From a virus: a DNA stretch of 36,039 nucleotides. The notes beneath the pieces are model-generated. The model worked only from the letters and a program-made list of their open reading frames with translations, was not told the origin of the DNA and searched no databases. The stretch covers positions 1-36,039 of IMG/VR virus record IMGVR_UViG_3300025646_000157; one strand, given 5' to 3'. The translations under genes and the position numbers were made by a program. Within the stretch, counting starts at the first letter, position 1, and each line of letters starts with the position of its first letter. Positions 1-24,520 of the stretch are shown here, piece after piece.

Positions 1-914
1 TCGGCGGGAGCGCTATCCTCTCCCTCCATACCGTCTGGGCCGGCGCCATCCTCATCAACAGGTGCGCCCTCGCCACCATCCTCATCGCCCATCTCTTCGC
101 CATCCGGACCCTCAACCATGGAGGAAACTTGCATATCCGGCTCCAGAGGGGCCTGACCGGGCATCGGATTCATGGATTCCGGATCACCGTACTCCATGTC
201 ATAGGGGGCGGGCGAACCAGTCTCCTCGATAGCTTGTCCTTCCTCGTCCACGCCCTTGACACCATTAATGTTCACATTAATAGTCATACCCCGACCGTCG
301 GCGTGATCGACAACTTTCGTCTCTTGAGCGGGGGCTTCGGTTTTTCTTTTAGCCATAGTAGGTAAAGTTTCTTGAAATGAAATAGAAGACTCCCTTGGAG
401 TAATTGTGATCGAGCCTTCGGGGTGAGTTTCGGCAAAGGCCGTGAGACCTTTGACCGCAGGGATTGACACCAGACCAAGGTGGCGCAGGGCCAGTTGACC
501 CGGTGTCGGATTCGTGTCAGCGTCAGGTAAATAAAACGAGCTACTTACCTTCTTAAAGACGCCGTCACGGATAAGGCGTTCCGCCTTAGGGGTCAGTTCG
601 ACTTTCCCCCAAAGCGATTTACCCTTTCGCCAAACTTCGCGCACCCAGCCAAGGGCTGGGGTACCGTCATCCTGATCATGGCCGATGATGAGGGGGGCCT
701 CGTGAGTGGTGGGATTATACCCACTCACCACTTGATCCAAGTCCTCATCCGCAAATACCATCTTCTGGCCGCTAGAACTAATCTGTGGGCCTGAACGAAA
801 CAGTTCGATGTATACCGTGCGTTTCGGTTGTTGCTCGGTCAGTGGAGTATCGGCATTAAGAACCGGGTCCATAGTCGGTCCGGGCTTAATCTCTGCACGA
901 AGTCTTCTTGCCAT
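1..914 (-). CDS. Head maturation protease with scaffold-like tail, Mu gpI-like (partial, C-terminus off left edge)
   Basis: The frame is open from the ATG at 914 to the window edge (at least 304 codons, no stop seen). Residues about 33-160 follow the pattern of Mu gpI-like prohead proteases: a beta-rich start (VYIELFRSG), a His in APLIIGHDQ (H79), an ALGWVREV...LWGKVELTP core, and a Ser-rich strand VSSSFYL (S124-126), then LGLVSIPAVKGL. H79 and one of these serines are the likely catalytic pair. From about residue 187 the protein becomes rich in Asp, Glu, Gly, Pro and Met, as expected of a scaffold removed during capsid maturation. The in-frame ATG at 356 could start a separate scaffold, as Mu gene Z does within I. 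The promoter-like motif at 920-928 ends only 5 bases before the ATG, so the start could instead be the ATG at 872. The major capsid gene would be expected beyond the left edge. Confidence 0.8.
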   Translation of the reverse strand, partial: MARRLRAEIKPGPTMDPVLNADTPLTEQQPKRTVYIELFRSGPQISSSGQKMVFADEDLDQVVSGYNPTTHEAPLIIGHDQDDGTPALGWVREVWRKGKSLWGKVELTPKAERLIRDGVFKKVSSSFYLPDADTNPTPGQLALRHLGLVSIPAVKGLTAFAETHPEGSITITPRESSISFQETLPTMAKRKTEAPAQETKVVDHADGRGMTINVNINGVKGVDEEGQAIEETGSPAPYDMEYGDPESMNPMPGQAPLEPDMQVSSMVEGPDGEEMGDEDGGEGAPVDEDGAGPDGMEGEDSAPA

Positions 915-928
915 ATCTATCTTTCAAC
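909..928 (-). promoter_or_regulatory. GTTGAAAG-type promoter motif before head protease
   Basis: Reads GTTGAAAGATAGATATGGCA on the minus strand. It begins directly after the sheath C-terminal stop codon (930-932) and nearly abuts the protease ATG. The ninth base is A instead of the usual C. A start site downstream of the box would give a leaderless or near-leaderless message. Confidence 0.5.
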
Positions 929-929
929 G

Positions 930-1238
930 TCAAACGTTAAGATTGGTGGCATCAAGGAAGGCGGTGAACCGTTCCTCATTGCGGCTGAACGAGTCGCTCA
1001 GGAGGGATACTTGTCCCACAGGGGTGCGGACGATGGTGATCGCGAGACGCTCCAGGGTGGGCGAAGTCGCCACGTACGCATCCATCCGTACCGTACCCCG
1101 CTCAAGGAGGGTAGCACTATTATTCGAGTCGCCACACACCACAAGATACGCTTGCTCGGGGCGATTACCAAACAAAGCCCCTTGCCGATAGAACTGATTC
1201 AAGATCTGGTTTGCAATCGACTTAACCCGACTGTACAA
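930..1238 (-). pseudogene. Detached C-terminal domain of the tail sheath (frameshifted)
   Basis: This frame carries the C-terminal domain of the sheath. It includes FYRQGALFGNRPEQAYLVVC, then DSNNS, then a VRMDAYVATSPTLERLAITI strand pattern typical of the sheath C-terminus that packs on the tail tube. Its first eight residues (YSRVKSI after a TTG) repeat the end of the upstream sheath frame because a 22-bp segment is duplicated. There is no convincing ribosome-binding site before the TTG at 1238, so independent translation is doubtful. With one 22-bp copy removed, these 94 residues (ANQIL onward) join the upstream 847 residues. It is either a real disruption, a sequence or assembly error, or an unusual bypass. 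The stop at 930 sits just upstream of the promoter motif for the protease gene. Confidence 0.8.
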
Positions 1239-1257
1239 TCGACTTAACCCGACTGTA
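1214..1257. repeat. Perfect 22-bp tandem duplication inside the sheath gene
   Basis: The unit CAATCGACTTAACCCGACTG plus TA occurs at 1214-1235 and again at 1236-1257 with no mismatch, and the next two bases (CA) also match. Because 22 is not a multiple of 3, the second copy shifts the sheath frame into a TAA stop. Confidence 0.95.
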
Positions 1258-3777
1258 CACGGTACCGGCCGAATCGATCGATTCGAACAGAATATCGTCG
1301 AAACTACGGTTCATCACATCAACGAGGACGTTGAGGATGACGCGGGTGTTGACGAAACGGAACAGCGGGTTGCTGGACAGCGTACGCGCACCCCAGACAA
1401 CGATGCCACGGTTGGGGAGCGAGCGGATCGGGTTGAGTCCGAGCGCGTAGGTTACCTCTTGCTGTTGTGCCGTAATCCGGAACTTGACATCAACCACGCC
1501 ACGTAGCGGATAACGGACGCCAGCAGGGGGTTGCTGGAATCCCTCGTTAATAAACCGTCCACAGGCTGCGCCGGCAACGAATCCGCTGGCCGGGACGAAA
1601 CGGTCACTCAGGTTCTTAAGGTAGGGGGCATAGAAGGCGGCGTGGCCGTAGAACGAACCCACGGTCCGTTTGACGGCATCGAGTTCGTCTTGTGCCTGGG
1701 ACAGGTTCTCAATGTCGCCACCACAATCGATCAGGGCGACGTGCTGGGTGTTGCTGATGCCTTCGGTCACCCCGAATCTTCCCTCGGCTGCCGCAACAAG
1801 AGTTTGCGTTACTTTGAGGCGTTCGGTGATGGCTTCGCTACGCGAGGCAAGATCAGAGCCCGCGCTGTACGATAGCGTCGCATACGCCTCCGGTGCCATT
1901 AGGAAACCAGGTGCGTAGTACTCACTGCCCATACCCTTTTCGATGGCGTAGACAAAGTCTTGTGCCTTGGCAGCCGAGGTAGTTTTGTAACCCTCATAGC
2001 CCACATCTTCAAGGATAGATGTAAGCTTCACAACGTTACTGTCTGTGAGACCTTGGCGATTCGTACCGGGCAGTACTGGACTTACGAGTCCGTTTTTCGC
2101 GGTAATCCGCACCTTAAGGACGTAGTCGAATGATTCGAAACCGTTCGCATAAGACTTTTCGACTCGCGCGGTCGCACCAGCACTTACGGTCACCGTATTC
2201 GGAGTCACAGTGGCGGCGGTATCACTGGTCACAACGGTGACGGTGAACCGAGTACCGTTCACAACAATCACATCGCCTGCACCGAGTTCTTGGGTGAACA
2301 GGGTACCTGTACCTGTAACCGTACCAGCGCTAATAGCGACCGTACCGGTCAGGGTAATATCGGAGAGGTCGGGACGGATGTACGGTGTGCCGTGAGAGGA
2401 CACCAGGTTGTCCACAACCTTGTGACCGTTGTTCGGCGCGTAACTTGTGCCGCTGTAATTCGATCCGGTCGTTACGGCTTCGACGGTATAGTACTGAGCA
2501 AGATTCTTTTCGGTTAGGATGGAAATCAATTCATCCCGGAGTCCTTCGGCCAGTTCGTCCGGTGTAGCACCGTTCACAATGATGGCCCGGTTCTCACCAG
2601 CAACGCTGACATAGAACACTTGGACCGAGTCAGGAAGGTAGCCGGTCCGAGTGGCCACACCGCCACTTACGGTTACAGTACCGGTAGGGACGATGGCATC
2701 GGAGCCGGATACGAGCTTCGCGAAAGTCGTAGTACCCAGATCGTAACGCCAATACGCTGCATCGGCATCGGCCCATTTGTCACCAGCACCTACACCGGAA
2801 CTAAAATCTTTGCTGACGGCGACGATCTTGTCGTCGGCAATCGTTGCGATCCCTAGCGAAGCTAGGTATGCCTTAAGGATATCAGACTGATCAGTAGCCG
2901 GATCGTAGGTACCTGCGATATTGGCGTTCGCTGCCGCAATAAAGAGGCTAACAGCAGAGCCATCGATGTAAAGTAAAGGCTCGCCGGTCTCGATCTCTCG
3001 GCTATTGCAGCGGAAATTAATCTCCTTGATCGAGGTATACAGCTTGACGACACTAGCAGTGTCCAGGTCCAGCGGTGACGCATATCCGGTATCCGTGAAG
3101 CTGTACGCAACGAATCTCTCTATTTCCGGCAGCAGACTGTTGTCGCGTGAGAATACGCGGAACTTACCCTGGGTCGCCTCAGTCGCGGTCTGCTCAACCT
3201 TATAGAAGTCTGCGAACCCGTCCGAATCCATACTGGACAGGTAATTATAAAGGTCGCGAGCGTTGTCAGTGGTGTCGATGCCGGTCGTGGTGATCACCCG
3301 GATCTCATCGCCGTCCGGATCGAGAACGTTGATTGGGGTGCCGAAATAACGACCATTTACTTTAAGGGCGAATGCGTTGTACCCACTACCAGCGCTGCTA
3401 GCGCTGAGGTCGATAACAGTCTCCGGGGTCGGGGTTACCCGAGTAAAGTACAGGATGCCGTTAACACCCACATTATCAAAGAACGCTTTTACCGCATCGT
3501 AACTGGTAATTGCGCCCACGCTTCCTACCGGAAGAGTACCACCCACCTTTTGTAGGTAATCTTCTGCAGAGGCTATCTGGGTTGGGGTGTAAGGAAGAAA
3601 TTCAGAATAAATACCCTCGCTATCCGTACCATAGTATTCATCGGCCGGCGTAGTACCGAACAAATAACCTACAGCGTGACTGGCGATGGGCTGTGGCAGG
3701 CCACCAGTAACAGACTGGGCTACAAAAACCCCTGGTCTATTAATGGCGCCCACGTTCGTTGTGATCGAAGTGGCCAA
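1222..3777 (-). CDS. Contractile tail sheath protein (C-terminally truncated by frameshift)
   Basis: This is the main body of the sheath, the protein that contracts to drive the tail tube into the host. The N-terminus has the sheath signature NRPGVFVAQSV, then a GYLFGTTP stretch and GVNGILYFTRVTPTPE. The C-terminal half has the conserved core: VALIDCGGD, YGHAAFYAPYL, then NPIRSLPNRGIVVWGARTL and RFVNTRVILNVLVDVM. A beta-rich inserted domain (about residues 360-560, with repeated TGTVTVSGG and TGTVAISAG strands) makes it larger than T4 gp18. The frame ends in VQSG after VYSRVKSI because of the 22-bp duplication; the intact protein would be 941 residues. The start is a TTG with GGAG eight bases upstream. 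A promoter motif lies at 3813-3821. Confidence 0.93.
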   Translation of the reverse strand: MATSITTNVGAINRPGVFVAQSVTGGLPQPIASHAVGYLFGTTPADEYYGTDSEGIYSEFLPYTPTQIASAEDYLQKVGGTLPVGSVGAITSYDAVKAFFDNVGVNGILYFTRVTPTPETVIDLSASSAGSGYNAFALKVNGRYFGTPINVLDPDGDEIRVITTTGIDTTDNARDLYNYLSSMDSDGFADFYKVEQTATEATQGKFRVFSRDNSLLPEIERFVAYSFTDTGYASPLDLDTASVVKLYTSIKEINFRCNSREIETGEPLLYIDGSAVSLFIAAANANIAGTYDPATDQSDILKAYLASLGIATIADDKIVAVSKDFSSGVGAGDKWADADAAYWRYDLGTTTFAKLVSGSDAIVPTGTVTVSGGVATRTGYLPDSVQVFYVSVAGENRAIIVNGATPDELAEGLRDELISILTEKNLAQYYTVEAVTTGSNYSGTSYAPNNGHKVVDNLVSSHGTPYIRPDLSDITLTGTVAISAGTVTGTGTLFTQELGAGDVIVVNGTRFTVTVVTSDTAATVTPNTVTVSAGATARVEKSYANGFESFDYVLKVRITAKNGLVSPVLPGTNRQGLTDSNVVKLTSILEDVGYEGYKTTSAAKAQDFVYAIEKGMGSEYYAPGFLMAPEAYATLSYSAGSDLASRSEAITERLKVTQTLVAAAEGRFGVTEGISNTQHVALIDCGGDIENLSQAQDELDAVKRTVGSFYGHAAFYAPYLKNLSDRFVPASGFVAGAACGRFINEGFQQPPAGVRYPLRGVVDVKFRITAQQQEVTYALGLNPIRSLPNRGIVVWGARTLSSNPLFRFVNTRVILNVLVDVMNRSFDDILFESIDSAGTVYSRVKSIVQSG

Positions 3778-3801
3778 AACTTGATCTCCGTTGATGACAG
3801 A

Positions 3802-3821
3802 CCTATCAAATAGCTTTCAAC
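3802..3821 (-). promoter_or_regulatory. GTTGAAAGC promoter motif before tail sheath
   Basis: Reads GTTGAAAGCTATTTGATAGG on the minus strand, 35 bases upstream of the TTG start of the sheath and just after the end of the 95-aa gene. The perfect 9-mer plus TA-rich box matches the other sites in the window. Confidence 0.65.
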
Positions 3822-3847
3822 GCCTTGGGGGTGCGAATTCGCACCAT

Positions 3848-4135
3848 TCACTCCGCGCTCGTACCTAGCGCGGTATACAACTCGTAGAGCTGGGTCATCA
3901 ACCAATCCGAACACAGCTCGTGTCCGCACTTCGTATTACCCATCATTCGAACTAAAGACCGCAACATCTGGTTGAAATCGCTCGGACCTATGAGTTCGGC
4001 AGAGAAGCGCACAAACCGACTAAGCTCAATGAAGTCGCGCTTCCGCGCGATCTCATACAGGACCATCATCAGTCCTAACAACTCCCCCGGATCAAGTTCT
4101 TCGCTAAACTTTGTTTTCAATACCTGTTGTATCAT
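3848..4135 (-). CDS. Small helical protein of the tail-assembly block, unknown function
   Basis: A 95-aa, mostly alpha-helical sequence (ELLGLMMVLYEIARKRDFIE, FNQMLRSLVRMMG) with two cysteines in KCGHELC. I do not recognise the family. Its ATG lies inside the end of the upstream gene, a 32-base overlap in another frame, so the two are probably translationally coupled. It lies directly before the sheath and its promoter motif and after a tail-chaperone-like gene. A role in tail assembly or the baseplate is therefore a reasonable inference, not a demonstrated one. Confidence 0.65.
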   Translation of the reverse strand: MIQQVLKTKFSEELDPGELLGLMMVLYEIARKRDFIELSRFVRFSAELIGPSDFNQMLRSLVRMMGNTKCGHELCSDWLMTQLYELYTALGTSAE

Positions 4136-5564: not shown

Positions 5565-7145
5565 GTGTCCTACTACAGCAACCCCCTAGAGACTCACCCT
5601 TGGGATGAACCTATCAGTGTTGCCAACAAAAAAGCCTTTACGGTTCATCAAATAGCCGATTCGCGAGGCATTATTGTCGATCCATTTGGTAACAGCTCCT
5701 CAGCCACAGCGACAACAGCGTTTGGCGAAGGTCTTGTCGCTCAACTCTATCCTGTCCTCCAACTCGACGGAATCTACGGGTTTGACTCAGAGAAACTAGA
5801 ACAATACTCCTCCGCAGGCGGCATTGTGACTGTCGACCGCGAGATGGCCGTATCCACATCCACATCTCCCGGATCCTATGCCGTCCTCCGATCCCGCCGT
5901 GCAGTTCGGTACCGGGCTGGACAAGGCGCAATGTGTCGATTTACCGCAGCGTTCACTGCCGGCGTTTCAGGATACACTCAGCGTGCTGGTTTTTTCACCC
6001 AAGAGCAAGCCTTGCAGGTAGGGTTTGACGGTGAAAAATTTGGCATCCTCCGGCTCAACGGTGGCAAAGCCCACATCCACTCGTTCACAATAACAACTGC
6101 CGCAACCTCAACCGGCACAGTGACCGTCACATTGAACGGAGTTGCACATACAGTCAATGTCACCCTGAGCAATGCAACTCAAAATGCCAAAGAAATCGCA
6201 TCGGTTACCTATCCTGGCTGGTTGGTCGAACAAGTTGATAACCATATCAATTTTCTCAGCGAGCAAGTAGCTCCTTTGACAGGAGCATTCTCTGTATCTG
6301 GTAGCGAAATTATCGCTGCTGGATCCGTAGTTCAACAAGGTATCGCTCACACCGAGCATTGGACGTATCAGGGCGATTTTAATGTCGATAAGTTAGATGG
6401 GACCGGCCCGTCCCAGATTAATCTGGATCATACAAAACTGAACGTTTACCAGATCAACTTCCGTTGGCTCGGAGCAGGAGAAATCAGATTTGCTGTCGAA
6501 GACCCGAATAACGGGGACATGGTATTTTTCCACCACATCCATTATACCAATAGGAATCGAGTTGTCCATTTGGACAATCCTTCCCTTAAAGTGGGTTACG
6601 TTGTTGCGAATATGTCGGGTACAGGAGGAGAAGAAATAAAAGTAATCGGCGCATCGATTCTAGGGGCGATTGAGGGTGTAATCTCACCGACAACTTATCC
6701 AGTCTCTGCGCGGGGGTATCGGTCTGGAAGCATGAACACCATCAACACTGTCTATCACCTTCTTACCGTCAAAAACTCACTCATATTCAATGGCAAAATA
6801 AACACCCGTGAACTTTTGGTTGAGAAAATCAGCGCATTAGCCACAATTGCATCTTCTGCTCCTGGTACAGTGCTAGTGTATATCGACCCTATACTTTCCA
6901 CAAATCTAACATTCAACTCATTCAGCCAAAACAAAGCAGCAATCTATTCAACCACCGCCACCACCATTAATGCATCACTAAACACTCCCATCGCTGCATT
7001 CAGTATCACATCCGCAGCACCACAGTTTATCGATCTTTCCTCTCTCCGAATAGCAGTACCCCCGCAATCATACATATCAGTCGGGTTTGTGTCTGGTGAT
7101 AACGTCAACACGGCCGAGGCTAACTTGATATTTATTGAGGATTGA
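5565..7145 (+). CDS. Fibre-like virion protein, 526 aa
   Basis: It starts at a GTG (MSYYSNPLETHPWDEP) without a clear Shine-Dalgarno sequence. The protein is beta-rich with few charged helices. A Thr/Ser-rich strand region (TITTAATSTGTVTVTLNGVA) follows a segment reading GFFTQEQALQVGFDGEKFGI, then GWLVEQVDNHINFL, then a jelly-roll-like region (VYQINFRWLGAGEIRFAVED). The C-terminal 150 residues are Ser/Thr/Ala-rich. No catalytic motif is seen. Composition, size and position suggest a structural or receptor-contact protein; the family is not named with confidence. Its last 32 codons and the promoter motif after the stop are duplicated immediately downstream (7167-7285). Confidence 0.75.
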   Translation: MSYYSNPLETHPWDEPISVANKKAFTVHQIADSRGIIVDPFGNSSSATATTAFGEGLVAQLYPVLQLDGIYGFDSEKLEQYSSAGGIVTVDREMAVSTSTSPGSYAVLRSRRAVRYRAGQGAMCRFTAAFTAGVSGYTQRAGFFTQEQALQVGFDGEKFGILRLNGGKAHIHSFTITTAATSTGTVTVTLNGVAHTVNVTLSNATQNAKEIASVTYPGWLVEQVDNHINFLSEQVAPLTGAFSVSGSEIIAAGSVVQQGIAHTEHWTYQGDFNVDKLDGTGPSQINLDHTKLNVYQINFRWLGAGEIRFAVEDPNNGDMVFFHHIHYTNRNRVVHLDNPSLKVGYVVANMSGTGGEEIKVIGASILGAIEGVISPTTYPVSARGYRSGSMNTINTVYHLLTVKNSLIFNGKINTRELLVEKISALATIASSAPGTVLVYIDPILSTNLTFNSFSQNKAAIYSTTATTINASLNTPIAAFSITSAAPQFIDLSSLRIAVPPQSYISVGFVSGDNVNTAEANLIFIED

Positions 7146-7165
7146 GTTGAAAGCATACTAGGATA
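7146..7165 (+). promoter_or_regulatory. GTTGAAAGC promoter motif, first copy
   Basis: Reads GTTGAAAGCATACTAGGATA and begins on the base after the fibre stop codon. It is part of the 119-bp duplication. The nearest downstream start is about 130 bases away, past the second copy. Confidence 0.55.
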
Positions 7166-7264
7166 AGAATAGCAGTCCCCCCGCAATCATACATATCAGT
7201 CGGGTTTGTGTCTGGTGATAACGTCAACACGGCCGAGGCTAACTTGATATTTATTGAGGATTGA

Positions 7265-7284
7265 GTTGAAAGCATACTAGGATA
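7265..7284 (+). promoter_or_regulatory. GTTGAAAGC promoter motif, second copy
   Basis: Identical to the copy at 7146. It ends 13 bases before the ATG at 7298 and 22 bases before the ATG at 7307, the usual spacing for this motif. Confidence 0.65.
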
Positions 7285-7306
7285 AGTAACACCCCCCTCA
7301 TGTCCC

Positions 7307-9198: not shown

Positions 9199-12100
9199 TG
9201 CCGATACCTCCCGCCATGCAACGAAGTCGGACACCAGGCAAAATCGTACCTCCCGGCGTATGGCGGCAAGAATTTCTTGCACTTCAATAGAGACATGCAG
9301 GCCCCGTATTCGTAGGGGTCGCGAAGCGATGCGCATGACATCTCAGTATCTTTGAGTAACGAGGACCTACTTGCCTCGCTAAGGCCGTTGGCTGTAAAAT
9401 ACCGCTGCGGGTCGGTTTCACTCATCTTATTATAGGTGATATTCCGTGCCATACCACTCCCAAGTACCCTGTCAACGGTTACGCTTCCACCCCCAAACGG
9501 ATCAGTACCATATCCGGTCTCAGGGAACAATGACTTATTGTACCCGGTAGCGCACATAGCCTCAGGATCGTAACCCTTGTCCACGCAATCAGTTGTGCCG
9601 AACTTCCTACATGACACAAGCGGGTCGAATCGGGTTGCGGGGCTATTAGACGTAGTCGAATCCGGTACATAGGATACTACGTAATCTTGTGTGGGTGGTG
9701 GTGTTTCCGTTGTTTCTGTATGTGCAACGTTATCTGCCACTACCACGCCATTCGCCAACAAATTCGACAACGCAATACGAACATAGCTTCCCCCATCCGT
9801 AGCGTAACGCTGAGTGAAGACCCCTGCCCCGTTCCCCCTTACCGAGATAAGCGCAGCTTCTTCTGGTGTCAATGAGTTACTGATACGGACACCATTAGGG
9901 ATCCTAGAATTACCGATACCGGGCGACTCGGCAATATTGTATCCGTCGATATCAAAATCACCACCCGATAGCAGATCGACCATCGCACCGAACTCTTTAT
10001 TCTGCACTTGTACCAGCGGTTCGTCATACACCTCTTGCGTTTCATCACCCATCGCCGCCTCATCGAACACGATGTTCGTCAAATACAACCGGCCAACAAG
10101 CGCCTCCATTGTATCCAACATCTCAAGCAACGTAGTGTACCGGTCTGCGGGCTGGTTGATCAGTTGGCCGGAATTTTTGTAGCCGGACAACGCATATAGC
10201 AACCCGAACAGATTACAATAGCGCAGCAATGAGGTCAGCCGTCCACCCCTCACCCCGTCCAGGATACCGCCTAGCGGCGATGTGGCGCTTGGCCCCGCAA
10301 GCGCACTGTAGAGTTCGGAGGGTGTAATGCCTTCGGCACGGTCGTATAGGCCGGCGACTCTGTCCCCTACATTCCCTGCCGACGCCTCGATCAACGCGTT
10401 CCATGTGGGTCTCTGGTGCTCATATCCCCTGTTATCTGAAACCACCATCTGAGCGACCATTCCACTCAGCAGGGATACGTCTTCTTTGCGTTTCAGAGCC
10501 GTCTTCTCTCCCCTCTGCAGTAGCAGTGTTATCGACTCGAACAGATCGATGTTGTTGAGATCTAGGATCGAATCGAGCCTCAGCAGTTGTTCGGGATCCA
10601 CGGCATACGTCAACGTCACCAAGTAGCCGACGAGCCGAGAGTACTGGCTTCCAGTGATTACCGACGCCTTGGAGCGGTTAACCTTCAACAGCTCAAGCAA
10701 CCTCAAAATGCTTGTGTCCGGATCCACTCCGTATAAAAAGTCGACGTACTGATCGATGGCCTGTTGACCTCCGAACTCATACATTAATTTGGTAAGGTCG
10801 TAGGCGCGGAAGAATGAGATCACATCTTGTGAATCGGTTAGAGGGGCGAGAGCGCCCAGCAACTCCGAGAACGATGACGCACCGGTAATTTGTTGAACCT
10901 CTTGACTGTTGAACCCTAGCCGACCAAGTTTCTCTCTCACCACATCCAGGTTCGGTTCGTACTGTACGAGTTCGAGGGAGGGGACGTAACCGCCAGGCCT
11001 AAACCCAATCGCCCTAACCGTATCGACCAAACTTGAAACAAGATTCGATAGGTGGTTGAACTTGTCATTAAAGTCGTGAAGATTAGGTTTATAGCCCAGC
11101 AACGCATAGAGCGAACGATAAGCTGTAAGCAACGCACCGATCGATCCGGTAAGACCTGTAGAACGTTCTTGTACATCAGCGGAGCCGGGAAACACCTTAG
11201 CCAACGCTTGGAGGTGCTGGGTCGTATTTCCGATCCCTTCCGGCGGACTCTTAAGAAACGAATCAATATAGTCGCCTGTCTTCAGGCATAACAGGTATAC
11301 GGATTCTAGTGAAAGTGATAAAAAGTCCGTACCGTTCTGTTTAGCCGGATTCGGGACATACCTGTCGGCAATACCGCTACTGCCGTAACGAAGAGCCACA
11401 GGGTTTACACTGACCGTGTTCTGATTAGCGGATCGGGTTGTATACAGTGTCTCTAGGAACCTTAATCCAGGTACGAGATCGGCGTCCGCCTTCCTTTGAT
11501 AAATAGAAGCGAAGTCTCCGAATTCCGGGCCCAACACCCCTTGAGGCAACCTCTTACCAAAGCACATCGCCACCAGGTATTCGTAATACCTGAACTGATA
11601 CTCGATACTTCCGGTCAACGACCCCTGGTAGCCACTAAACTCCAAATAGAAGTCGTGCAACGACTTGATGCTCGCGTATATCTTCTTTCCTTCGCCTGCA
11701 AACGTCGCAACTAACATATCTTCGTCAACCGGATCGAGGGCTTCTGGGGTCCGCGAATCCGACGTAATCGCATTTATGTCTACAGCAGCATTGGATACGA
11801 CATCCGCGTACGAGTCGACATAGGACTGGAATGTGTCGCTGAAACGTTTGCGGAGTCGGCTTACAGGGATGGGGGAAACGGTGGTGTCACGATTACGTGC
11901 CAAAAGACGGGACTGGGTCGGCCCCAAGTTTAATGTTTTCTCGGATTCCCTATACTCAGGTACATCGCCCAGATATTCCGGAACACTCCTGCGCAGCAGG
12001 ACGTTGGCATCAGAGATGGCGTCGCGCAGCAGGGACTCATACTTTTTATATACTCGCACGGTATCCGGATCTACGATCCCGCTGCTCTCGATCTCTTCGT

Positions 12101-12371
12101 ATAGACTGGTGACCACCGAGTCATAGACGGCCAGCGCAAGATCATAATTGAACCCTAGTGTGAAAATACCCTCCGCGATCTTGTCCTTCAACGGTACCAC
12201 AGATATGATCTCACCACTCTCGATCTGCCCGTTAACGGTCAGCAATAGCTCGACCGCAATGCCGTAAAACGTCACCTTTTCGCTTTCTATGGCAAAACGC
12301 CCGTACTGGTCAAGACCTCGGGTCACAATCACCTTGACCCGTTCATATACTAGCTGAACGATCTCGCTCAC
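9195..12371 (-). CDS. Large virion protein of unknown family, 1058 aa, Cys-rich C-terminus
   Basis: It starts at a GTG with AGAGG upstream and a promoter motif at 12393-12401. The first 800 or so residues are mainly helical with regularly spaced Leu/Tyr/Asp segments (IYASIKSLHDFYLEFSGYQG, LLTAYRSLYALLGYKPN, FNDKFNHLSNLVSSLVDTV). There is no transmembrane run and no Gly-rich fibre repeat. The last 150 residues hold eight or so cysteines (SCRKFGTTDC, EAMCATG, MSCASL, GACMSLLKC, AWCP), few of which occur earlier, suggesting metal binding or disulfides. Length and helicity would suit a tape measure or a baseplate scaffold-like protein, but the usual coiled-coil and hydrophobic tape-measure pattern is not evident, so I leave the function open. 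The LRR gene follows with an ATGA overlap. Confidence 0.7.
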   Translation of the reverse strand: MSEIVQLVYERVKVIVTRGLDQYGRFAIESEKVTFYGIAVELLLTVNGQIESGEIISVVPLKDKIAEGIFTLGFNYDLALAVYDSVVTSLYEEIESSGIVDPDTVRVYKKYESLLRDAISDANVLLRRSVPEYLGDVPEYRESEKTLNLGPTQSRLLARNRDTTVSPIPVSRLRKRFSDTFQSYVDSYADVVSNAAVDINAITSDSRTPEALDPVDEDMLVATFAGEGKKIYASIKSLHDFYLEFSGYQGSLTGSIEYQFRYYEYLVAMCFGKRLPQGVLGPEFGDFASIYQRKADADLVPGLRFLETLYTTRSANQNTVSVNPVALRYGSSGIADRYVPNPAKQNGTDFLSLSLESVYLLCLKTGDYIDSFLKSPPEGIGNTTQHLQALAKVFPGSADVQERSTGLTGSIGALLTAYRSLYALLGYKPNLHDFNDKFNHLSNLVSSLVDTVRAIGFRPGGYVPSLELVQYEPNLDVVREKLGRLGFNSQEVQQITGASSFSELLGALAPLTDSQDVISFFRAYDLTKLMYEFGGQQAIDQYVDFLYGVDPDTSILRLLELLKVNRSKASVITGSQYSRLVGYLVTLTYAVDPEQLLRLDSILDLNNIDLFESITLLLQRGEKTALKRKEDVSLLSGMVAQMVVSDNRGYEHQRPTWNALIEASAGNVGDRVAGLYDRAEGITPSELYSALAGPSATSPLGGILDGVRGGRLTSLLRYCNLFGLLYALSGYKNSGQLINQPADRYTTLLEMLDTMEALVGRLYLTNIVFDEAAMGDETQEVYDEPLVQVQNKEFGAMVDLLSGGDFDIDGYNIAESPGIGNSRIPNGVRISNSLTPEEAALISVRGNGAGVFTQRYATDGGSYVRIALSNLLANGVVVADNVAHTETTETPPPTQDYVVSYVPDSTTSNSPATRFDPLVSCRKFGTTDCVDKGYDPEAMCATGYNKSLFPETGYGTDPFGGGSVTVDRVLGSGMARNITYNKMSETDPQRYFTANGLSEASRSSLLKDTEMSCASLRDPYEYGACMSLLKCKKFLPPYAGRYDFAWCPTSLHGGRYRQ

Positions 12372-12381
12372 GTGCTACAAT

Positions 12382-12401
12382 ACCTCTACTTGGCTTTCAA
12401 C
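12382..12401 (-). promoter_or_regulatory. GTTGAAAGC promoter motif before the 1058-aa gene
   Basis: Reads GTTGAAAGCCAAGTAGAGGT on the minus strand; the AGAGG at its end may double as ribosome-binding site for the GTG at 12371. It is divergent to the motif at 12411, with only nine bases between the two 9-mers. Confidence 0.65.
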
Positions 12402-12410
12402 CGAAAACCC

Positions 12411-12430
12411 GTTGAAAGAACTTAAAGAAC
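12411..12430 (+). promoter_or_regulatory. Variant promoter motif (GTTGAAAGA) before the 12412 gene
   Basis: Reads GTTGAAAGAACTTAAAGAAC. It coincides with the first codons of the longest downstream frame (TTG at 12412), so if it is a promoter the protein should start later, at the ATG at 12442. Confidence 0.45.
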
Positions 12431-13020
12431 TCCACGCACTTATGTTACGCATCGCCCTTTTACACACCCGAAGATCAGCAGAGGAGAAAGACCTTGGTAA
12501 AATGATCAAGCACTTATTTGGTGTGTTGTCTGAGATCGAGAACACCCACGTTGTAGGTGTTACCCTTGAGCCTGGCATATTCCATGACTACTCATCCTAT
12601 AACCACCTTGTATTCTGTGGCTACGACCATGTGACTTTCGCCCATCTCCACCTGGCCATGGCCACCACGGACCCGGACAAGACCCGTATCACTCTCTACG
12701 ATGAGCCAGGGGCGAGCGTGGAGCGCGAGCTGGGAACGCTCCTCTATGCCGGCATCGACCGCCGCCGTATCGACCCCAGCGCCGCCACTCGCCTCACATA
12801 CTCCTGGTCACACCGCGACCTGGTTGCCACCACAAATCAAGATGTGCTAAAATACGAAAATGGATCCGGTACTGCTGGAACAACTAGCAACCCTGAACCG
12901 GCTCAATCTGAGCCCGGACCTGATTCGGGAGCTGATCGAGCACGACAAGTGGAAAATAAAAGAGCAACATCGCCACGAAAAAGAACTCGCCCTGCTGGGG
13001 ACGAAAAAACCAAGCAGTAG
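12412..13020 (+). CDS. Hypothetical protein, 202 aa (start uncertain)
   Basis: The longest frame begins at a TTG inside the promoter-like motif; the ATG at 12442 (MLRIALLHTRRSAEEKDLGK) gives 192 residues and is more likely if the motif is a promoter. An amphipathic helical N-terminus leads into a compact alpha/beta region (ENTHVVGVTLEPGIFHDYSS, HLVFCGYDHVTFAHLHLAMA, RITLYDEPGASVEREL). The last 55 or so residues overlap the next gene in another frame and are of low complexity, so the tail is either disordered or the two genes truly overlap. The family is not recognised. Confidence 0.6.
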   Translation: MKELKELHALMLRIALLHTRRSAEEKDLGKMIKHLFGVLSEIENTHVVGVTLEPGIFHDYSSYNHLVFCGYDHVTFAHLHLAMATTDPDKTRITLYDEPGASVERELGTLLYAGIDRRRIDPSAATRLTYSWSHRDLVATTNQDVLKYENGSGTAGTTSNPEPAQSEPGPDSGADRARQVENKRATSPRKRTRPAGDEKTKQ

Positions 13021-13729
13021 CGCGGACGACGTATCCTGCGACAACGAGGACGAAGTCTTTAACTCGGATACGTCGTCCGGTGTGTGCGAAAGCAATCATA
13101 TTGGTTTAGTGTCCAAAACCCGTGTAATGGCTGGTGCGGCTCAAAAGGCCAAAGACCTTAAGCCGGACACAGACCTGCCGACATCGCTCCTCGCCTTGGT
13201 GATCTCCATATCCTGGTGCGGTCAACGCTTGAACCGGTGGCCCCGGGCCTCTGACTCCAAAGCAGCGCTGAACTTCCGCAACGACTTGGACAAAGCGGTT
13301 GAGAAATACGGCGTCAAAGACGTACTCGGCGCGGTCGACTTCGTCTCAGAGGTGTTACCGGATTGGACCCCGGACCTTGTATCCGAACAACTCGATACGT
13401 TGCGTTCCGACTACGAGCACAAACGCTCAATAAGTATCTCAAGCTCCCCGTTGTTTGCCGAGTTCAGCAAAAATTTCCCTCACATATCCCCCGAAATGTT
13501 CGAATCATGCTATAATCAGCACAACGAGCAATTCGTACCCGCCGCCATCTACCTGTTGCGGCGTGAATTCAAGAACCACCCTCCTTCCGACCTCTCCCAT
13601 ATCGAGGGGTGGAAACAAGGGTGGCAACAATACCTCCCTACCTATTTAAAGCAATGGCAAGAAGACCTAAGAAAGATGGAAAGCAGGATGCGAATCGCCC
13701 AAAGGGCGTGGAAGGAGTCAATATCTTGA
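12860..13729 (+). CDS. Hypothetical protein upstream of portal, 289 aa
   Basis: It starts at an ATG (MDPVLLEQLATLNRLNLSPD) inside the end of the previous gene. The N-terminus is a charged helix (IRELIEHDKWKIKEQHRHEK), followed by a Ser/Asp linker and a helical domain of about 180 residues with many Trp/Tyr residues (HIEGWKQGWQQYLPTYLKQW). The position two genes before the portal and a helical, basic N-terminus would fit a terminase small subunit or another packaging factor, but I see no decisive motif and treat it as unknown. A TGCTAAAAT stretch 12 bases before the ATG resembles an extended -10 element. The end overlaps the next small gene by 76 bases. Confidence 0.65.
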   Translation: MDPVLLEQLATLNRLNLSPDLIRELIEHDKWKIKEQHRHEKELALLGTKKPSSSADDVSCDNEDEVFNSDTSSGVCESNHIGLVSKTRVMAGAAQKAKDLKPDTDLPTSLLALVISISWCGQRLNRWPRASDSKAALNFRNDLDKAVEKYGVKDVLGAVDFVSEVLPDWTPDLVSEQLDTLRSDYEHKRSISISSSPLFAEFSKNFPHISPEMFESCYNQHNEQFVPAAIYLLRREFKNHPPSDLSHIEGWKQGWQQYLPTYLKQWQEDLRKMESRMRIAQRAWKESIS

Positions 13730-13887
13730 CGGATACGCAGTATGGTGTGTATGTCGACGGAGCCGAAGAAACAATCGAGATGTACGAGCGGGGCGATCTA
13801 ACATCCGAACAACTATACAACACCATCCTTGACCTCGATGTTGTGTATCGTTCCCGCCCCGAATCCGTTGAAAGCTCTGAAGAATAG
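13654..13887 (+). CDS. Small acidic protein before portal, 77 aa
   Basis: I chose the ATG at 13654 (MARRPKKDGKQDANRPKGVE); an ATG at 13609 would add 15 residues and lengthen the overlap with the previous gene. A basic N-terminus is followed by an acidic helical part (YVDGAEETIEMYERGDLTSE, QLYNTILDLDVVYRS). The last codons (SVESSEE) contain the promoter motif for the portal gene. Its function is not known; it may be a packaging- or portal-associated protein, judged from location only. Confidence 0.55.
   Translation: MARRPKKDGKQDANRPKGVEGVNILTDTQYGVYVDGAEETIEMYERGDLTSEQLYNTILDLDVVYRSRPESVESSEE
13867..13886 (+). promoter_or_regulatory. GTTGAAAGC promoter motif before portal
   Basis: Reads GTTGAAAGCTCTGAAGAATA, inside the final codons of the 77-aa gene and 19 bases before the portal ATG at 13906. 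Confidence 0.6.
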
Positions 13888-13905
13888 AGTACCAGCCCAT
13901 AACGC

Positions 13906-15846
13906 ATGTCATCTGATGGCGATAAGTCCGTAAAGCGTGTTGTCAAAACGGGCTACAATGACCGTTTGTATTCGCTAGGCCTTAGCCAGGGCCAGATCGC
14001 GGGTTTCAAAGCCGACCCGTACACGTGGGGCGGCCTGCCTACAGTACTGACCGGGGCAATCCTACCCCGTCGCGATGACATCTTGATTGAGGAGGGGGGC
14101 GGTGGCCCTCGCTCGATTGAGCAGTACACGAGGTTATTTAATGACAGTGCGGTACTGAGTGCATGGGAGAAGCTGGTTGGTGAAATTATCCAGCGCGAGT
14201 GGCATGTCTTTCCGGCCTCGGATTCTGACAAAGACGAGGAAATCGCTGAATTCGTACGGCAAGTCATTTACCACCTAGGGACCAATACGCGCCAAAGTCG
14301 TGGTCGCGACATGCTGGTGAGTTCGAATACGGGATTTAACGCCTTCGTCAAGGGGATGGCGGAATCGCTCATCTTAGGTATGAGTGTCGGTGAGATTTGC
14401 TGGATGCGGCAGGGCAGCTATGTGGTGCCTAGCGAGATCAAGATCCGCGATCCCCGCCGCTTCCAATTCGTCCTTAACGAAGATGGCTCTATTAGTCCGC
14501 GAGTCATTACGATCCAATCTCCGGTCGAGGGCTTTCCGATCCCTTTGCGATCAATGGTCATTCACCGGCACTGGGCATATAACAACCTTGTCGACCCGTA
14601 CGGGACCGGTCTTGGCCGTCAACTCTACAGCCTCGTGGAGTTCCGCCGTACCCTGATGAGTTTCTGGCTCCAGTACGCCGACAAGCACACCACGCCAACG
14701 GCGGTAGGCAAATTCAGCCTAGGAACCCCAGAGGAGGAAGTAAAGTCGCTGTTTACCGCCTTGCAAAGGCTGGGGCAAGAAACCGCCATCGTAGTACCCG
14801 ATGAGATGTCGGTCGAGTATTTGTCAGCCGACTCGAAGAGCGACGTATACCAATCCTTGATAAGTTATATCGACCAACAGATCTCCTTCTTGATCAATGG
14901 CGAGTCGACTGTTGGCCAGGATACGGGCAGCACGGGCTCTTACGCTCGCGATCAAATCGCGGACAGTGTCCGGATGCGTAAAGCCAAAGCCTTTTCGGAG
15001 CAACTTGATGAGACGCTAAACGCCACACTGATCCGATGGATTGTTGAGCTTAATTATCCGGGCTCTTCGGTCCCCCGCATCGTAAGAAGCTTTGAGGACC
15101 TTGAACAACGAGAAGATCCGGTCAAGACCGTTCAGATCCTGACGCAACTTCAGGCTGTTGGTTATCAGGTTACTGATTTGGATTGGGTACGGGATAAATT
15201 GCAGATCCCGTCACTGGAGAAAGTCTCTATGGAGGAGATGATGGGCGCACCAGGTATGGCCGAAAACAAGAAGCCCCAAGTCCATAGCTCTGGCGAATCC
15301 GATGGCGGGCCGGTCATTGGCGAAAGCATGATCGGAAAAATGCTCTCCAGCTCCCCTGCTCCCGTTTCGGCCGAGAATCTTGATTTCAGCGAATTCGATG
15401 AGTCCGGCGACCTGAAAGATGAAACGGTCAGGGACAAAGTTGCCAAAAAGATCGCCGAACGTTTCAATCAGGGCGGTCTCGACGAGGTCGGTTGGGACCG
15501 ACTATCCTCGGGTATATCATCCACCGATTCAGAGAACTCCAAACTCAACATCGACGAATCGACAACACCTGGTGACATCATCTTTACGACCAAACGTCTC
15601 CTTGATGAGATCCGGTCGATTCCACGTCACACCCCGCCCGAACACGACAAACTCCGCATGGACCTTGTCCGATACGAGAATACCGTGCTGCGCGAAGATG
15701 ATCTGGATGAGGGTGAAATTCGCAACCTAATCAAACTTTACACTTTAGCTTACCGCCTAAACCGTAGCTTTGTCCACCGCGAACTCGTCAATATCGATCC
15801 TGACGCCCTGGGTTATTGGGCCGAATTCGCCCCGTACTATATGTAG
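13906..15846 (+). CDS. Portal protein, Mu gp29-like (DUF935)
   Basis: Forms the dodecameric portal ring at one capsid vertex through which DNA is packaged and ejected. Diagnostic stretches of the Mu gp29/DUF935 family are visible: a receiver-like N-terminus, VLSAWEKLVGEIIQREWHVF near residue 80, SLILGMSVGEICW, HRHWAYNNLVDPYGTGLGRQ, then LYSLVEFRRTLMSFWLQYAD, and a stretch reading AIVVPDEMSVEYLSADSKSD. SYARDQIADSVRMRKAKAFS and LNATLIRWIVELNYPG then lead to the clip/wing end. About 150-180 extra residues after the core are Ser/Glu/Asp-rich and then helical (EIRNLIKLYTLAYRLNRSFV), making it longer than Mu gp29 (about 510 aa). A promoter motif precedes it and the tail tube gene follows. Confidence 0.9.
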   Translation: MSSDGDKSVKRVVKTGYNDRLYSLGLSQGQIAGFKADPYTWGGLPTVLTGAILPRRDDILIEEGGGGPRSIEQYTRLFNDSAVLSAWEKLVGEIIQREWHVFPASDSDKDEEIAEFVRQVIYHLGTNTRQSRGRDMLVSSNTGFNAFVKGMAESLILGMSVGEICWMRQGSYVVPSEIKIRDPRRFQFVLNEDGSISPRVITIQSPVEGFPIPLRSMVIHRHWAYNNLVDPYGTGLGRQLYSLVEFRRTLMSFWLQYADKHTTPTAVGKFSLGTPEEEVKSLFTALQRLGQETAIVVPDEMSVEYLSADSKSDVYQSLISYIDQQISFLINGESTVGQDTGSTGSYARDQIADSVRMRKAKAFSEQLDETLNATLIRWIVELNYPGSSVPRIVRSFEDLEQREDPVKTVQILTQLQAVGYQVTDLDWVRDKLQIPSLEKVSMEEMMGAPGMAENKKPQVHSSGESDGGPVIGESMIGKMLSSSPAPVSAENLDFSEFDESGDLKDETVRDKVAKKIAERFNQGGLDEVGWDRLSSGISSTDSENSKLNIDESTTPGDIIFTTKRLLDEIRSIPRHTPPEHDKLRMDLVRYENTVLREDDLDEGEIRNLIKLYTLAYRLNRSFVHRELVNIDPDALGYWAEFAPYYM

Positions 15847-15854
15847 CTGTCCAT

Positions 15855-15874
15855 GTTGAAAGCTGTGTAGAAGG
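15855..15874 (+). promoter_or_regulatory. GTTGAAAGC promoter motif before tail tube
   Basis: Reads GTTGAAAGCTGTGTAGAAGG, in the 51-base gap between portal and tail tube. AGAAGG at its end is a little far from the ATG at 15898 to be a normal ribosome-binding site. Confidence 0.65.
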
Positions 15875-15897
15875 AAAAACTTCCGCCCACTTCTACC

Positions 15898-16326
15898 ATG
15901 ATTCAGATTCGTCCTGCGACTCAGAGCCAGTTTTACATCCAGGCTTCTCCGTTCGCCCACTACTTCACTTCGTTCAACGGTATTCGCGATACCGCTGCCA
16001 CTTCCCAATACGCTGACGGTATTCGTCAACGTGCCTACAACCTCAAGGGCCCTAAGACTCTGGCCGAGATGACCGTCTCTACCCCTTTCGACCCCGTCCA
16101 GCACGCTGATATTCTTGACTTCTGGAAGTCCAACGGTTGCGATTTCATCACCCTGACAATCACCCCGGTGACTTGTGGCGAAGACCCTCAGCCCCTCGGC
16201 ACCCGCACCCTGATTATCCCTGACGCCCAACTGACCAGCGTCAACGGTTTCGTTATCGACCGGTCCAGCGGCCAGCCCAGCACCCTGGAACTGACCTTTG
16301 TGGGTAATAACTTCACCTATAACTGA
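15898..16326 (+). CDS. Probable tail tube protein, 142 aa
   Basis: A compact beta-rich protein starting MIQIRPATQSQFYIQASPFA. The C-terminal two-thirds fit the tail-tube fold: a strand AEMTVSTPFDPVQHADILDF, a short helix DFWKSNGCDF, strands ITLTITPVTCG and TRTLIIPDAQLTSVNGFVID, then STLELTFVGNNFTYN at the end. High-copy structural genes of this size with their own promoter are usual for tube proteins. The codon choice is strongly biased to C-ending codons, as expected for a highly expressed gene. The match is by pattern only, so another small virion protein remains possible. Confidence 0.65.
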   Translation: MIQIRPATQSQFYIQASPFAHYFTSFNGIRDTAATSQYADGIRQRAYNLKGPKTLAEMTVSTPFDPVQHADILDFWKSNGCDFITLTITPVTCGEDPQPLGTRTLIIPDAQLTSVNGFVIDRSSGQPSTLELTFVGNNFTYN

Positions 16327-16342
16327 GCGTAGCGTACCCCAC

Positions 16343-17224
16343 ATGGCTGCCAGGACCTTTGGCAACATCGACCCGGGCTGTTTGACATCCGGACAGCTAG
16401 AGGCTTTGGCGGCTGTAGGCATCGAAAGCGACGATCTAGTCGATACAAGTTGCGATGCAGCTTCGCTGAATACATGTGGCCGCGATGCCAATGAACTGGT
16501 AACACTTTACCCCTTGTACGATGAGGGCAAGGGTGTTTATACGGCCTGGGGGGAAATCGCCCTACCCTGGAACCACGAAGATCCTGTCAGCGACGAGAGT
16601 TGGCAAGTCTCAACATTCACGGACGAATTCTCATATCGCACGGGTGATACCGTATCCCGTTACGAGGATGACGGTTACGTCGTTGCGGTGTATACCTCCA
16701 TTGCGAACGTGCCCGCCCCGGCCGGAGCCTTTAACCCAACATCGTGGTCCAAGGTATGTTCGGTTACCGTATCCGAACCAGTAGGACTACCCGAGTACAC
16801 CAAACTCTTGGACAAATACGAGTACTACGATACGTCGTCGACAACTACGGCTTCGTCGGAATTCGACTCTACTTGGTCAACTGATCCCGTAGACCCTGAC
16901 AACGATCAGTGGGGTGCTGCGGAAATCGAAAAAGATTACCTTTACAGGGCAGGAGACACCGTACTACATGATACAGGGTGTGGCGACTACACTTGCGTCT
17001 ATGTCGCCCTGGCCGATGTCCCCATCGATGTTGTTAACGAACCGCCCCCCTCATCCCACTGGGAACGACTTTATTGTGTCCGGAACGGAAAGCCCAACAC
17101 CTGCGTTAAGCGTGTCACTTGCACAGAACCGAACCGTGAGGTCGTATCGCTTAGTAACGGCGACTCTGATCTGATTTGCGTTCCCGTTGAAAGCACTACA
17201 GGGATTAGACCGAGGCTTGTATAG
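16343..17224 (+). CDS. Cys-rich virion protein with two CBM-like repeats, 293 aa
   Basis: I chose the ATG at 16343 (MAARTFGNIDPGCLTSGQLE) because the longer GTG-started frame overlaps the tail tube gene. Two related modules are visible: SYRTGDTVSRYEDDGYVVAV followed by YTSIANVP...W, and YRAGDTVLHDTGCGDYTCVY followed by VALADVP...HW. The Y-x-x-GD-x-V...Y...P...W pattern recalls small carbohydrate-binding modules of the chitin-binding type. At least ten cysteines are spread through the protein. The next gene's GTG overlaps its TAG stop by one base, so the two are probably coupled; a neck, tail-tip or fibre-attachment role is inferred. Confidence 0.7.
   Translation: MAARTFGNIDPGCLTSGQLEALAAVGIESDDLVDTSCDAASLNTCGRDANELVTLYPLYDEGKGVYTAWGEIALPWNHEDPVSDESWQVSTFTDEFSYRTGDTVSRYEDDGYVVAVYTSIANVPAPAGAFNPTSWSKVCSVTVSEPVGLPEYTKLLDKYEYYDTSSTTTASSEFDSTWSTDPVDPDNDQWGAAEIEKDYLYRAGDTVLHDTGCGDYTCVYVALADVPIDVVNEPPPSSHWERLYCVRNGKPNTCVKRVTCTEPNREVVSLSNGDSDLICVPVESTTGIRPRLV
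17186..17205 (+). promoter_or_regulatory. GTTGAAAGC promoter motif before the large tail fibre
   Basis: Reads GTTGAAAGCACTACAGGGAT, entirely inside the last codons (PVESTTG) of the preceding gene, 29 bases before the GTG of the fibre. Confidence 0.6.
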
Positions 17225-20200
17225 TGGCAACAAACACATATGGCAGATCGTGTACCCCGAATAAAGGGGGAGTACAGGACTATTATACAAAATCGGAAGT
17301 CAATACGTTACTCGGTGCCAAAGCTAATATCAGCACGGTTTATACCAAATCCTATGTAGACGGCGAACTATCGACGCTATCCAGCAGTATCGCATCACTC
17401 GATGCGGACAAAATCGACCAGACGCAACTCGACACCGCGCTTACTACGTTACAGGGGGCGATCGAGGCTAGTGTCGCTGCCACGTACGCAACTCTCGCCG
17501 ATACGTACACCATATCACAGGTCGACTCCATAATCGCGGCTATCGACCTCGATCCAGCGGACTACGTCCGCTCGGTACCAACGACCACGTCGCAGAATAC
17601 GATATACCCCGGAGCGGCCGATGCTATCGCCCTTACGGTGCGTGGCTCGGACACCAACTCAATCGTCACCCGGTGGCTAGATAACACCAGCAACGTAATC
17701 GGTTACATCAGCAACTCCGGTTCCACCACCCTGAACGGTGCGCTTTCTGTAGGTAGTTCCGTATCAGAAGGTAGCATTGGAATTAATGTTAATAATCGCC
17801 GCATCAGCGGTGTAGCTGCCCCTGTACTTCCATCTGACGCTGTACCCTACAGCACGTTACAGTCATATGTTCTAGATTTTTATGAGGACATTACAGTCCC
17901 GGAAGGAAGTTTTTCCTCCCTTAATGCTGGTACTTATCCCACACTCGACCCTTCACGGGACATTTATCGTCACCTAAGAAGCAGTATGAGTCAAGAAAGG
18001 CCACTGGGTGTGAGCCTGTATGACGGTGAGATAGCAGTCAATTATAATTCTGACAGTCCCGCCCTCTTCATCAGAGATAATCTCGGAAATATCCGAAAAA
18101 TAGGCCCAGCCCATATCGGTGACAATTCTCCTGTTCCCGTTAACAACACTGATCTTTCTGACGGTGAGCTGTGGATCAATAGATCCGAAGAGTCTGTTAA
18201 TTTCTACGATTCTATTAGCGATAGCTGGATCAGAGCGGGCACTGCTAATGGTGTTAGGTATCAAAATTGCATATACGTATCCAAGAGCGGTAACGACTCC
18301 AATAGTGGTGAGATTGATTCACCGTTTTTGACAGTAAGACAGGCATCTTTGGTTGCCCAACCTGGTGACGTCGTTTACATTTCACCTGGTACCTACACGG
18401 AGACTTCTCTACCAATACGGTGGAAACGAGATGTTGCCGTATTTGGGTCCGGATTACGTTCCACAATTGTTCAACCGGCACCTGGACAAGAGTTTAATGA
18501 TATTTTCAAGGTTGACTCAGGATTTTGGTGCTGGGGTCTTAGTTTTGCTGGTCACCAGGCTGATGAAACTCAACAAGCCTGGGCCATCTCATTTGATGAA
18601 CTAGCCAATAATACAAACATCGGTGCCATTGGGTCAGGTGCGTTTATCTTTAAGTCTCCGTATATTCAAAACTGTACCAGTATCACTGCAGAAGACGACT
18701 CTGGTGTTGCACCTTCTCAGTCCACTGGCAACACAGGGGGCGGCCTTAAGATTGATGGAGACCAGTGTGCGATCAATTCACCAATTCGCTCCATGGTGGT
18801 TGATAGTTATACGCATGTAAATCTGGGTGGCCCCGGCTGTCTCGTTAAGAACGACGGTTACGCGCAGCTTGTTAGTTTCTTTGGCCTATTTTGTACTTAC
18901 CATGTCCGTAGCGAAACGGGCGGCCAGGTAAACCTCAGTGGTGGTGGAACTACGGATTTCGGTATCTATGGTTTAATGGCCGACGGCTATAGCCCCAAAC
19001 CCGTCTTTACTGGTGAGTCTAGGGTATTTACTTATGGGGCGATTAGGGTCGAAAAAGGTGTCACAATTGATGTAACAACTGACTTGTTCACTTCAGTTGA
19101 CCATGGACTGGTTGTAGACGATCAGATTACTCTTTCGGCTACTGATGGCAGCCTTCCTACAGGTCTGAGTAACAACACAACATATTATGTGGTTTCCAAC
19201 GGGTTAACAGTAGACACTTTTAGGGTGTCTGATACCCCAGGCGACACATCTTACATCGATGTCTCTGGAGATTCTTCTGGGACCTATCAGTTCCTACGTC
19301 AAGGCTCGACAGAGATTGATATCATTGATTTCTCAGCTAACAGACTAGGACTTCAAAAGAAGTATCCCACTGCTGGTAGTACAGGATCTTTTGGCAACCC
19401 TGTCACCGTCAGTGCCATAGATGGTAACAATTTTACTGTAACACTTGACACCAGTGACATTGTTCATGAGTATGTAGGAGGTGGTTCTGTAACCGTAGGA
19501 GGTACTGAAACTTACCTTGTAACAAGTGCACAGTACAATAATCTGACCGGTGAAACAGTAATCAACGCCACAGGGTACGTTCCCTCTTTAGGGGACAGTA
19601 TTACGCTGTCTGACCTATCTTTTATCTGTAATTCGACTTCTCGGCCCTTTGCGGGTCAGTTAATGTTCCCGCAACTGATTTTCCCAAGAAACGCTGTAAC
19701 CGGGGCACCGGAGACAAAAACATTCGCTTACACTCGCACCGGAGACTACACTCTAACTTATACCGAAGCGGCTTCTCCATCTGGTCCGGATCATGAGTAC
19801 GTTGAGGGTGGTACTGTTGTCATCGGTGGTACGGACTATGGTGTTTCCAATGCAGTGTATGATAAGTCCACTGGAGTTGTAGAAATAACAACAGTTCTTC
19901 AGTTACCATCAGGTGACGGTAACGCCGATGTCGGGGGTTTAGTATTTATCTGCCCTGACGGCGCCTATATTATAACCAGTAGCGCTGCTATTGATCAAAA
20001 TGGCAATGTTATTGCTGAAGATTCACCGTTAAAGGTAGGGTATCGCGTCCAGTTCTACTCAGGACTAAATGGTGGCCTAAGAATTCCCATCGATCCCGGT
20101 CAAGTACTGGATTTCCGTAACCGATCTCAGATTACTGCCCCTTCTCATACATTTGAATACGTTGGAAGCGGTACTAACTACGATGCATTACCTTGGAATG

Positions 20201-22491: not shown

Positions 22492-22509
22492 TGGAGAAAC
22501 ACTTTAATC

Positions 22510-22956
22510 ATGGCTAAATTCACTATCGACATCCCGGAACACTTATTACCTGCAATTGCCGCTGAGTTCGCAACTGTACAAGGCAGCACGACCGCCAAGA
22601 CTCCTGAGGAGTATTTTATGGCAAGTGTTATTGAGATTGTGAGACAACGTGCTGAGCACTACGAGGTTGGGCCTTATTTTAAGGGTATCGTTCAACCACG
22701 GTTCCTTGCTGATGGTCGTGGCAATCCGGCATATACAGGTGCCGATGCCATTCCCTACGTTGTGATTTATCCGCCGCACAATGGTACTACCACAAACGAG
22801 GTGACTGATCCGGACACTGGTGAAATCACCGAAGAAGTCGTGAATGTTGAGTGGATTGATGGTGACCAGTGGACTGATCCGGTGACTGGTAAGGTTTATG
22901 AGTTCACCGATGGTGTGTGGAAAGAGTATGTGGCTCCGGGGGAAGTGGTCGTATGA
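22510..22956 (+). CDS. Fibre-cassette protein, 148 aa, unknown
   Basis: The ATG lies 18 bases after the fibre stop, with TGGAGAAA upstream as a plausible ribosome-binding site. The N-terminus (MAKFTIDIPEHLLPAIAAEF) is a short strand-helix, followed by a helix with EIVRQRAEHYEVGPYF and a beta-rich acidic end (EVTDPDTGEITEEVVNVEWI, GKVYEFTDGVWKEYV). The family is not recognised. Its stop overlaps the next start as ATGA. As first gene after the fibre it could be a fibre chaperone or a structural accessory, judged only by context. Confidence 0.7.
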   Translation: MAKFTIDIPEHLLPAIAAEFATVQGSTTAKTPEEYFMASVIEIVRQRAEHYEVGPYFKGIVQPRFLADGRGNPAYTGADAIPYVVIYPPHNGTTTNEVTDPDTGEITEEVVNVEWIDGDQWTDPVTGKVYEFTDGVWKEYVAPGEVVV

Positions 22957-23840: not shown

Positions 23841-24520
23841 CACAAGCCGTAGACCTCGCTAATGCAATCAACACCTTTGTCAAAGGGTGTAAAACCGATG
23901 GAACGTGGGACGCAATCAAAGCTTGCTGCATCATGGCAGCTTGGGATGGTTTGGATGGTGCGTTGTACCCGTTGAAAGGTGCTGCGCCCACGAACTTTAA
24001 CTTTGTCGCTGCGGATTACGACAGGGAAACTGGGTTGGTTGGTGATGGGAGTACAAAGTATTTGGATAGCGGTCGGAATAACAATGCTGATCCGCAGGAC
24101 AACAGACACGTTTCATGTTACGCCAATATACCAGATAACGCCAATAAGATTTTGATAGGAGCACGAATACCTGAGACAAACGCTGGGGGACTTGAAATGC
24201 GTCACATAGGCTACATTTATTACGTTCCCAGTAGCGACACTGGCACCTTCGCCACGGCGGTAATTGGCGCAAATTTTTTAGGATTTTCAAGGCTTGCTGG
24301 CGGTTCTTACGAAAGCAGAAGAAATCACGTCACGTCCACGATTGCGGAGACAAGCGGAACTCCAGTTAATCTCAATGTATTTATTTTCACAAGGAATGAC
24401 TTGGCTATTAAGTCAGACGCCCGCATCGCCTTCTACTCCATCGGAGAAGCCCTAGACCTCGCCCTACTTGACGCCCGCGTTTCAACCCTTATGACTGACA
24501 TCGGAGCTGCAATCCCATGA
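23837..24520 (+). CDS. Fibre-cassette adhesin-like protein B, 227 aa (paralogue of previous gene)
   Basis: It matches the preceding protein over its whole length: INTFVKGCKTDGTWDAIKAC, DRETGLVGDGSTKYLDSGRN, and SDARIAFYSIGEALDLALLD near the end. It is shorter because it lacks the first 37 or so residues and the Ser/Gly-rich C-terminal extension. Start and stop overlap both neighbours as ATGA. The most conserved DNA lies at the 3' end (GACGCCCGCATCGCCTTCTA in both), which could serve as a recombination site for swapping adhesin tips. Confidence 0.75.
   Translation: MTQAVDLANAINTFVKGCKTDGTWDAIKACCIMAAWDGLDGALYPLKGAAPTNFNFVAADYDRETGLVGDGSTKYLDSGRNNNADPQDNRHVSCYANIPDNANKILIGARIPETNAGGLEMRHIGYIYYVPSSDTGTFATAVIGANFLGFSRLAGGSYESRRNHVTSTIAETSGTPVNLNVFIFTRNDLAIKSDARIAFYSIGEALDLALLDARVSTLMTDIGAAIP

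Follow-up and report, generated by a model that had tools for sequence, protein, structure and literature searches.

A 22-bp tandem duplication that interrupts the tail sheath gene of an S-TIM5-like phage contig is probably an assembly artefact

The 36,039-base IMG/VR virus record IMGVR_UViG_3300025646_000157, a single contig that is referred to over its whole length as the window, has a tail sheath gene broken by a perfect 22-bp tandem duplication. From sequence comparisons with related viral contigs, we consider it probable, at roughly 70%, that this duplication is an assembly artefact of one metagenomic contig. The window covers 36 kb of the genome of an uncultured phage related to cyanophage S-TIM5. 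In the phage from which the contig derives, the sheath is most likely an ordinary protein of 941 residues. The features at the break are as follows.

1222 to 3777, minus strand: 5' piece of the sheath gene, cut by the frameshift (ORF of 851 aa; PHROG 17610, E=7e-226; Pfam Phage_sheath_1, 8e-07)
930 to 1238, minus strand: 3' piece of the sheath gene with the conserved C-terminal domain, out of frame (ORF of 102 aa; PHROG 17610 and PHROG 23)
1214 to 1235: first 22-bp unit, identical to the next unit
1236 to 1257: second 22-bp unit, at a place where related loci have a single unit

The initial annotation had the coordinates and the arithmetic of the broken gene right but gave no strand; the gene reads from right to left, on the minus strand. 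The two units are indeed identical (CAATCGACTTAACCCGACTGTA), and the 22 extra bases end the sheath at 851 aa (ORF 3777-1222), as had been proposed. The sheath core sequence lies in the N-terminal piece, which matches the PHROG 17610 tail sheath family and scores just below the cut-off for Pfam PF04984 (29.4 bits against 31.4). The 3' ORF has 102 aa when counted from a TTG at 1238, with about 94 residues past the native junction. Its assignment as the sheath C-terminal domain was upheld by matches to the end of PHROG 17610 (positions 1037-1134, E=6e-32) and to the general sheath family PHROG 23 (E=1e-8), and by an alignment of the family's C-terminal region, which matches solved sheath structures (best 8kee_A, E=2e-55; T4 gp18 entries at about 1e-7). 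The recorded sequence of the window thus has the core and the C-terminal domain in separate ORFs.

Among named phages, S-TIM54, S-TIM61, S-TIM66 and S-TIM5 are the closest. The tail sheath of S-TIM5 (NC_019516, Aurunvirus), F417_gp150, is a homologue of the window sheath, with 48% identity to the long piece and 63% to the C-terminal piece. It is encoded by one uninterrupted CDS and, at 1137 aa, is longer than the window sheath. In both phages the head maturation protease is next after the sheath, and the flanking genes (sheath, a long gene, and portal on the other strand) seem to be in the same order. No second sheath gene able to rescue the break was seen in the window, itself a partial genome; there was one such place per record of the S-TIM group.

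IMG/VR was scanned with the C-terminal piece of the sheath, which gave 52 related loci, and the comparison with related sheath genes that had been suggested could be made across the junction in all of them. Every one has a single unit and a reading frame that continues through the junction, with core and C-terminal domain in frame. Among these loci are three near-identical contigs (98-99% identity), which carry three different IMG dataset numbers and have one unit each. The most informative, L003 (IMGVR_UViG_3300025647_006642), aligns to window positions 1-3967 and is of the same genotype as the window, with 1 substitution in 3,945 aligned bases; it differs from the window in lacking the extra 22-bp unit, and its sheath is intact. 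Its uninterrupted ORF is of exactly 941 aa, the length that had been predicted for the rejoined protein. The extra unit is also absent from L005 (window 1-2409; 6 substitutions over 2,387 aligned bases) and from L004 (window 1-1460; 6 substitutions over 1,438 aligned bases). A 26-mer across the unit-unit junction was found in no other viral contig, in a search that may omit records very close to the window and so could have missed a second two-copy contig. The sole substitution that separates the window from L003 falls close to the duplication.

1202: A in the window; G in L003, L004 and L005

This position is 12 bp from the duplication, a proximity with a chance of about 1% by position alone, as calculated post hoc. 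In L004, five substitutions relative to the window lie within 22 bp (window 1122-1143) in a contig that is otherwise nearly identical; this cluster may reflect recombination or a local error.

Farther along the window, the near-identical contigs L066, L065 and L096 cover positions 10431-25708 and have no frame-breaking indel. Over the approximately 19 kb of near-identical comparison, the 22-bp unit is the only frame-breaking indel, and the other indel is an in-frame one of 9 bp, which is seen in L096 at 21843. An internal repeat in a 1755-aa ORF (at 21336-21852) is evident from L065, which aligns at 92% to a second location in the window (21484-21839).

Apart from the 22-bp duplication, the window has no perfect tandem duplication whose unit is at least 10 bp. 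The period-22 match extends for 24 bases, giving an array at 1214-1259; for 36 kb of sequence, an exact match of 22 bases at a single spacing greatly exceeds what chance would produce. Homology flanking the duplication is 2 bp (CA), and there is no run of N in the record at the 1235/1236 seam. The 22-bp unit, a weak quasi-palindrome, is capable of self-pairing. Two copies in tandem give a strong stem (-30.6 kcal/mol, z about -4), an outcome that repetition of a self-complementary unit is enough to produce.

The window has one further private tandem duplication, at some distance from the sheath gene.

7048 to 7286: two tandem copies of 119 bp that differ at one position (A at 7058, C at 7177)

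The only mismatch of the 119-bp duplication lies 10 bp inside the copy edge. The stop codon of the ORF at 5565-7145 falls in the first copy, so that the ORF stays whole. No near-identical contig over this duplication was found by exact 32-mer matching, and the comparison is with L055 and L056 (77-81% protein relatives), the only two relatives that cover this end of the ORF; the duplication is absent from both. The mismatch base of the second copy (C) is the third codon base of the relatives, an agreement which suggests that the two copies may come from two strains. The ORF at 5565-7145 is a plus-strand structural-protein ORF (PHROG 1645) within a minus-strand block; L055 and L056 are the only relatives of it that were found in IMG/VR, and the corresponding interval of S-TIM5 is occupied by other genes.

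The background of tandem repeats was taken from approximately 1.16 Mb of related loci. In these, the perfect tandem units of at least 12 bp have lengths of either 12 or 21 bp, each divisible by three. TRF detected in this sequence no tandem duplication of at least 98% identity with a unit of at least 18 bp, the closest being at 94%. With the limit set at 90% identity or more, the relatives have only diverged arrays at or below 94%, and the window alone has two at 99-100%.

We infer that an unmerged overlap, rather than a mutation, gave rise to the duplication. Two overlapping pieces of the sheath gene would have been placed end to end with their 22-base overlap uncollapsed, and the overlap would thereby have been written twice. 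The duplication is private to one contig, it has a putative local error nearby (position 1202), and the same contig has a second private duplication. Two private, near-perfect, two-copy duplications, each with a lone mismatch nearby, form the pattern expected of unmerged contig overlaps. Three observations count against such a seam: the length of 22 matches no k-mer step attributable to a pipeline, the record has no N run there, and the unit is a weak quasi-palindrome, a type of site at which replication is known to err. A search of the literature on artificial tandem duplications yielded no directly usable source. Of the three explanations that the initial annotation had left side by side, the assembly error is therefore the one that gains support; a variant of a subpopulation is retained as a rival, and an expression device is disfavored, the repeat being present in none of the relatives.

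The principal rival, possible but in our estimate unlikely, is a real and very recent tandem duplication that arose by replication slippage at the quasi-palindrome in one phage genotype; the record would then be that of a defective or low-frequency genome assembled as the consensus. The self-pairing of the unit and the stem formed by the doubled unit are in keeping with this origin, as is the substitution at 1202, since slippage or template switching can leave a substitution nearby. PMC7202029 reports quasi-palindromes as mutation hotspots, and a recent slippage mutant would give a consensus of identical appearance. The event would have to be recent, given that L003 has one unit and is otherwise almost identical. 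However, only 2 bp of flanking homology are present to support slippage, and the second private duplication in the contig would require a second independent event. A further objection concerns the fate of such an allele: the C-terminal part belongs to the conserved core of the sheath, a core that appears to mediate tube contact and tail assembly (PMC9230969), so that the truncated sheath would probably leave the genome defective, and such a genome would not be expected to dominate the population.

Readings in which the phage makes use of the interruption, by recoding or as a split gene, are very improbable even when taken jointly. Recoding, itself highly improbable, would consist of a +1 slip or a 22-nt ribosome hop over the repeat, yielding both a truncated and a full sheath. 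Each codon of the first unit does have an identical triplet 22 nt farther on, and a ribosome hopping from one to the other would produce the native protein. The +1 frame has no stop between about 1313 and 930, and the doubled unit forms a hairpin. Apart from this geometry of the repeat, no evidence speaks for the device. It would exist in one contig only, and S-TIM5 makes its sheath from one CDS. Nor is the hairpin conserved: in 21 single-copy relatives z scatters around 0, with L054 as an outlier. L054 is the most divergent sheath relative (68-70% identity), and its stable hairpin at the equivalent position (approximately 3981-4039; z -4.4), which differs in shape, is probably a chance result among 21 tests. 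A scan of the 95-nt ORF overlap for a listed set of slippery motifs found none, and the 3' ORF lacks a clear ribosome-binding site. Among the relatives, neither the repeat nor a conserved hairpin is present as a recoding signal.

In bypassing of the T4 gene 60 type, the ribosome skips a stretch between matching codons. The window resembles that system only in the abstract idea of such a skip. Unlike gene 60, the codon before the stop in the window (GGT) has no matching in-register landing codon nearby, and the repeat is without a conserved hairpin and is absent from relatives. More remote still is a real two-copy allele present at appreciable frequency, with full sheath made by an exact one-unit ribosome skip or with gain and loss of the unit acting as a phase-variable switch. 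Least probable of all is a gene that is truly split, its C-terminal domain made as a separate small protein from the in-frame TTG at 1238, given that no clear Shine-Dalgarno sequence accompanies any candidate start of the 3' ORF and that the sheath is continuous in all 52 relatives and in S-TIM5.

Rather than a new biological device, the duplication is thus most likely either an error of assembly or a recent, one-time mutation. It should be noted, as a caution, that where an essential gene of a lone metagenomic contig is interrupted by a short, perfect tandem duplication, near-identical contigs are to be checked before a biological meaning is given to it. A real duplication would make this sheath allele of an S-TIM5-like cyanophage either defective or phase-variable.
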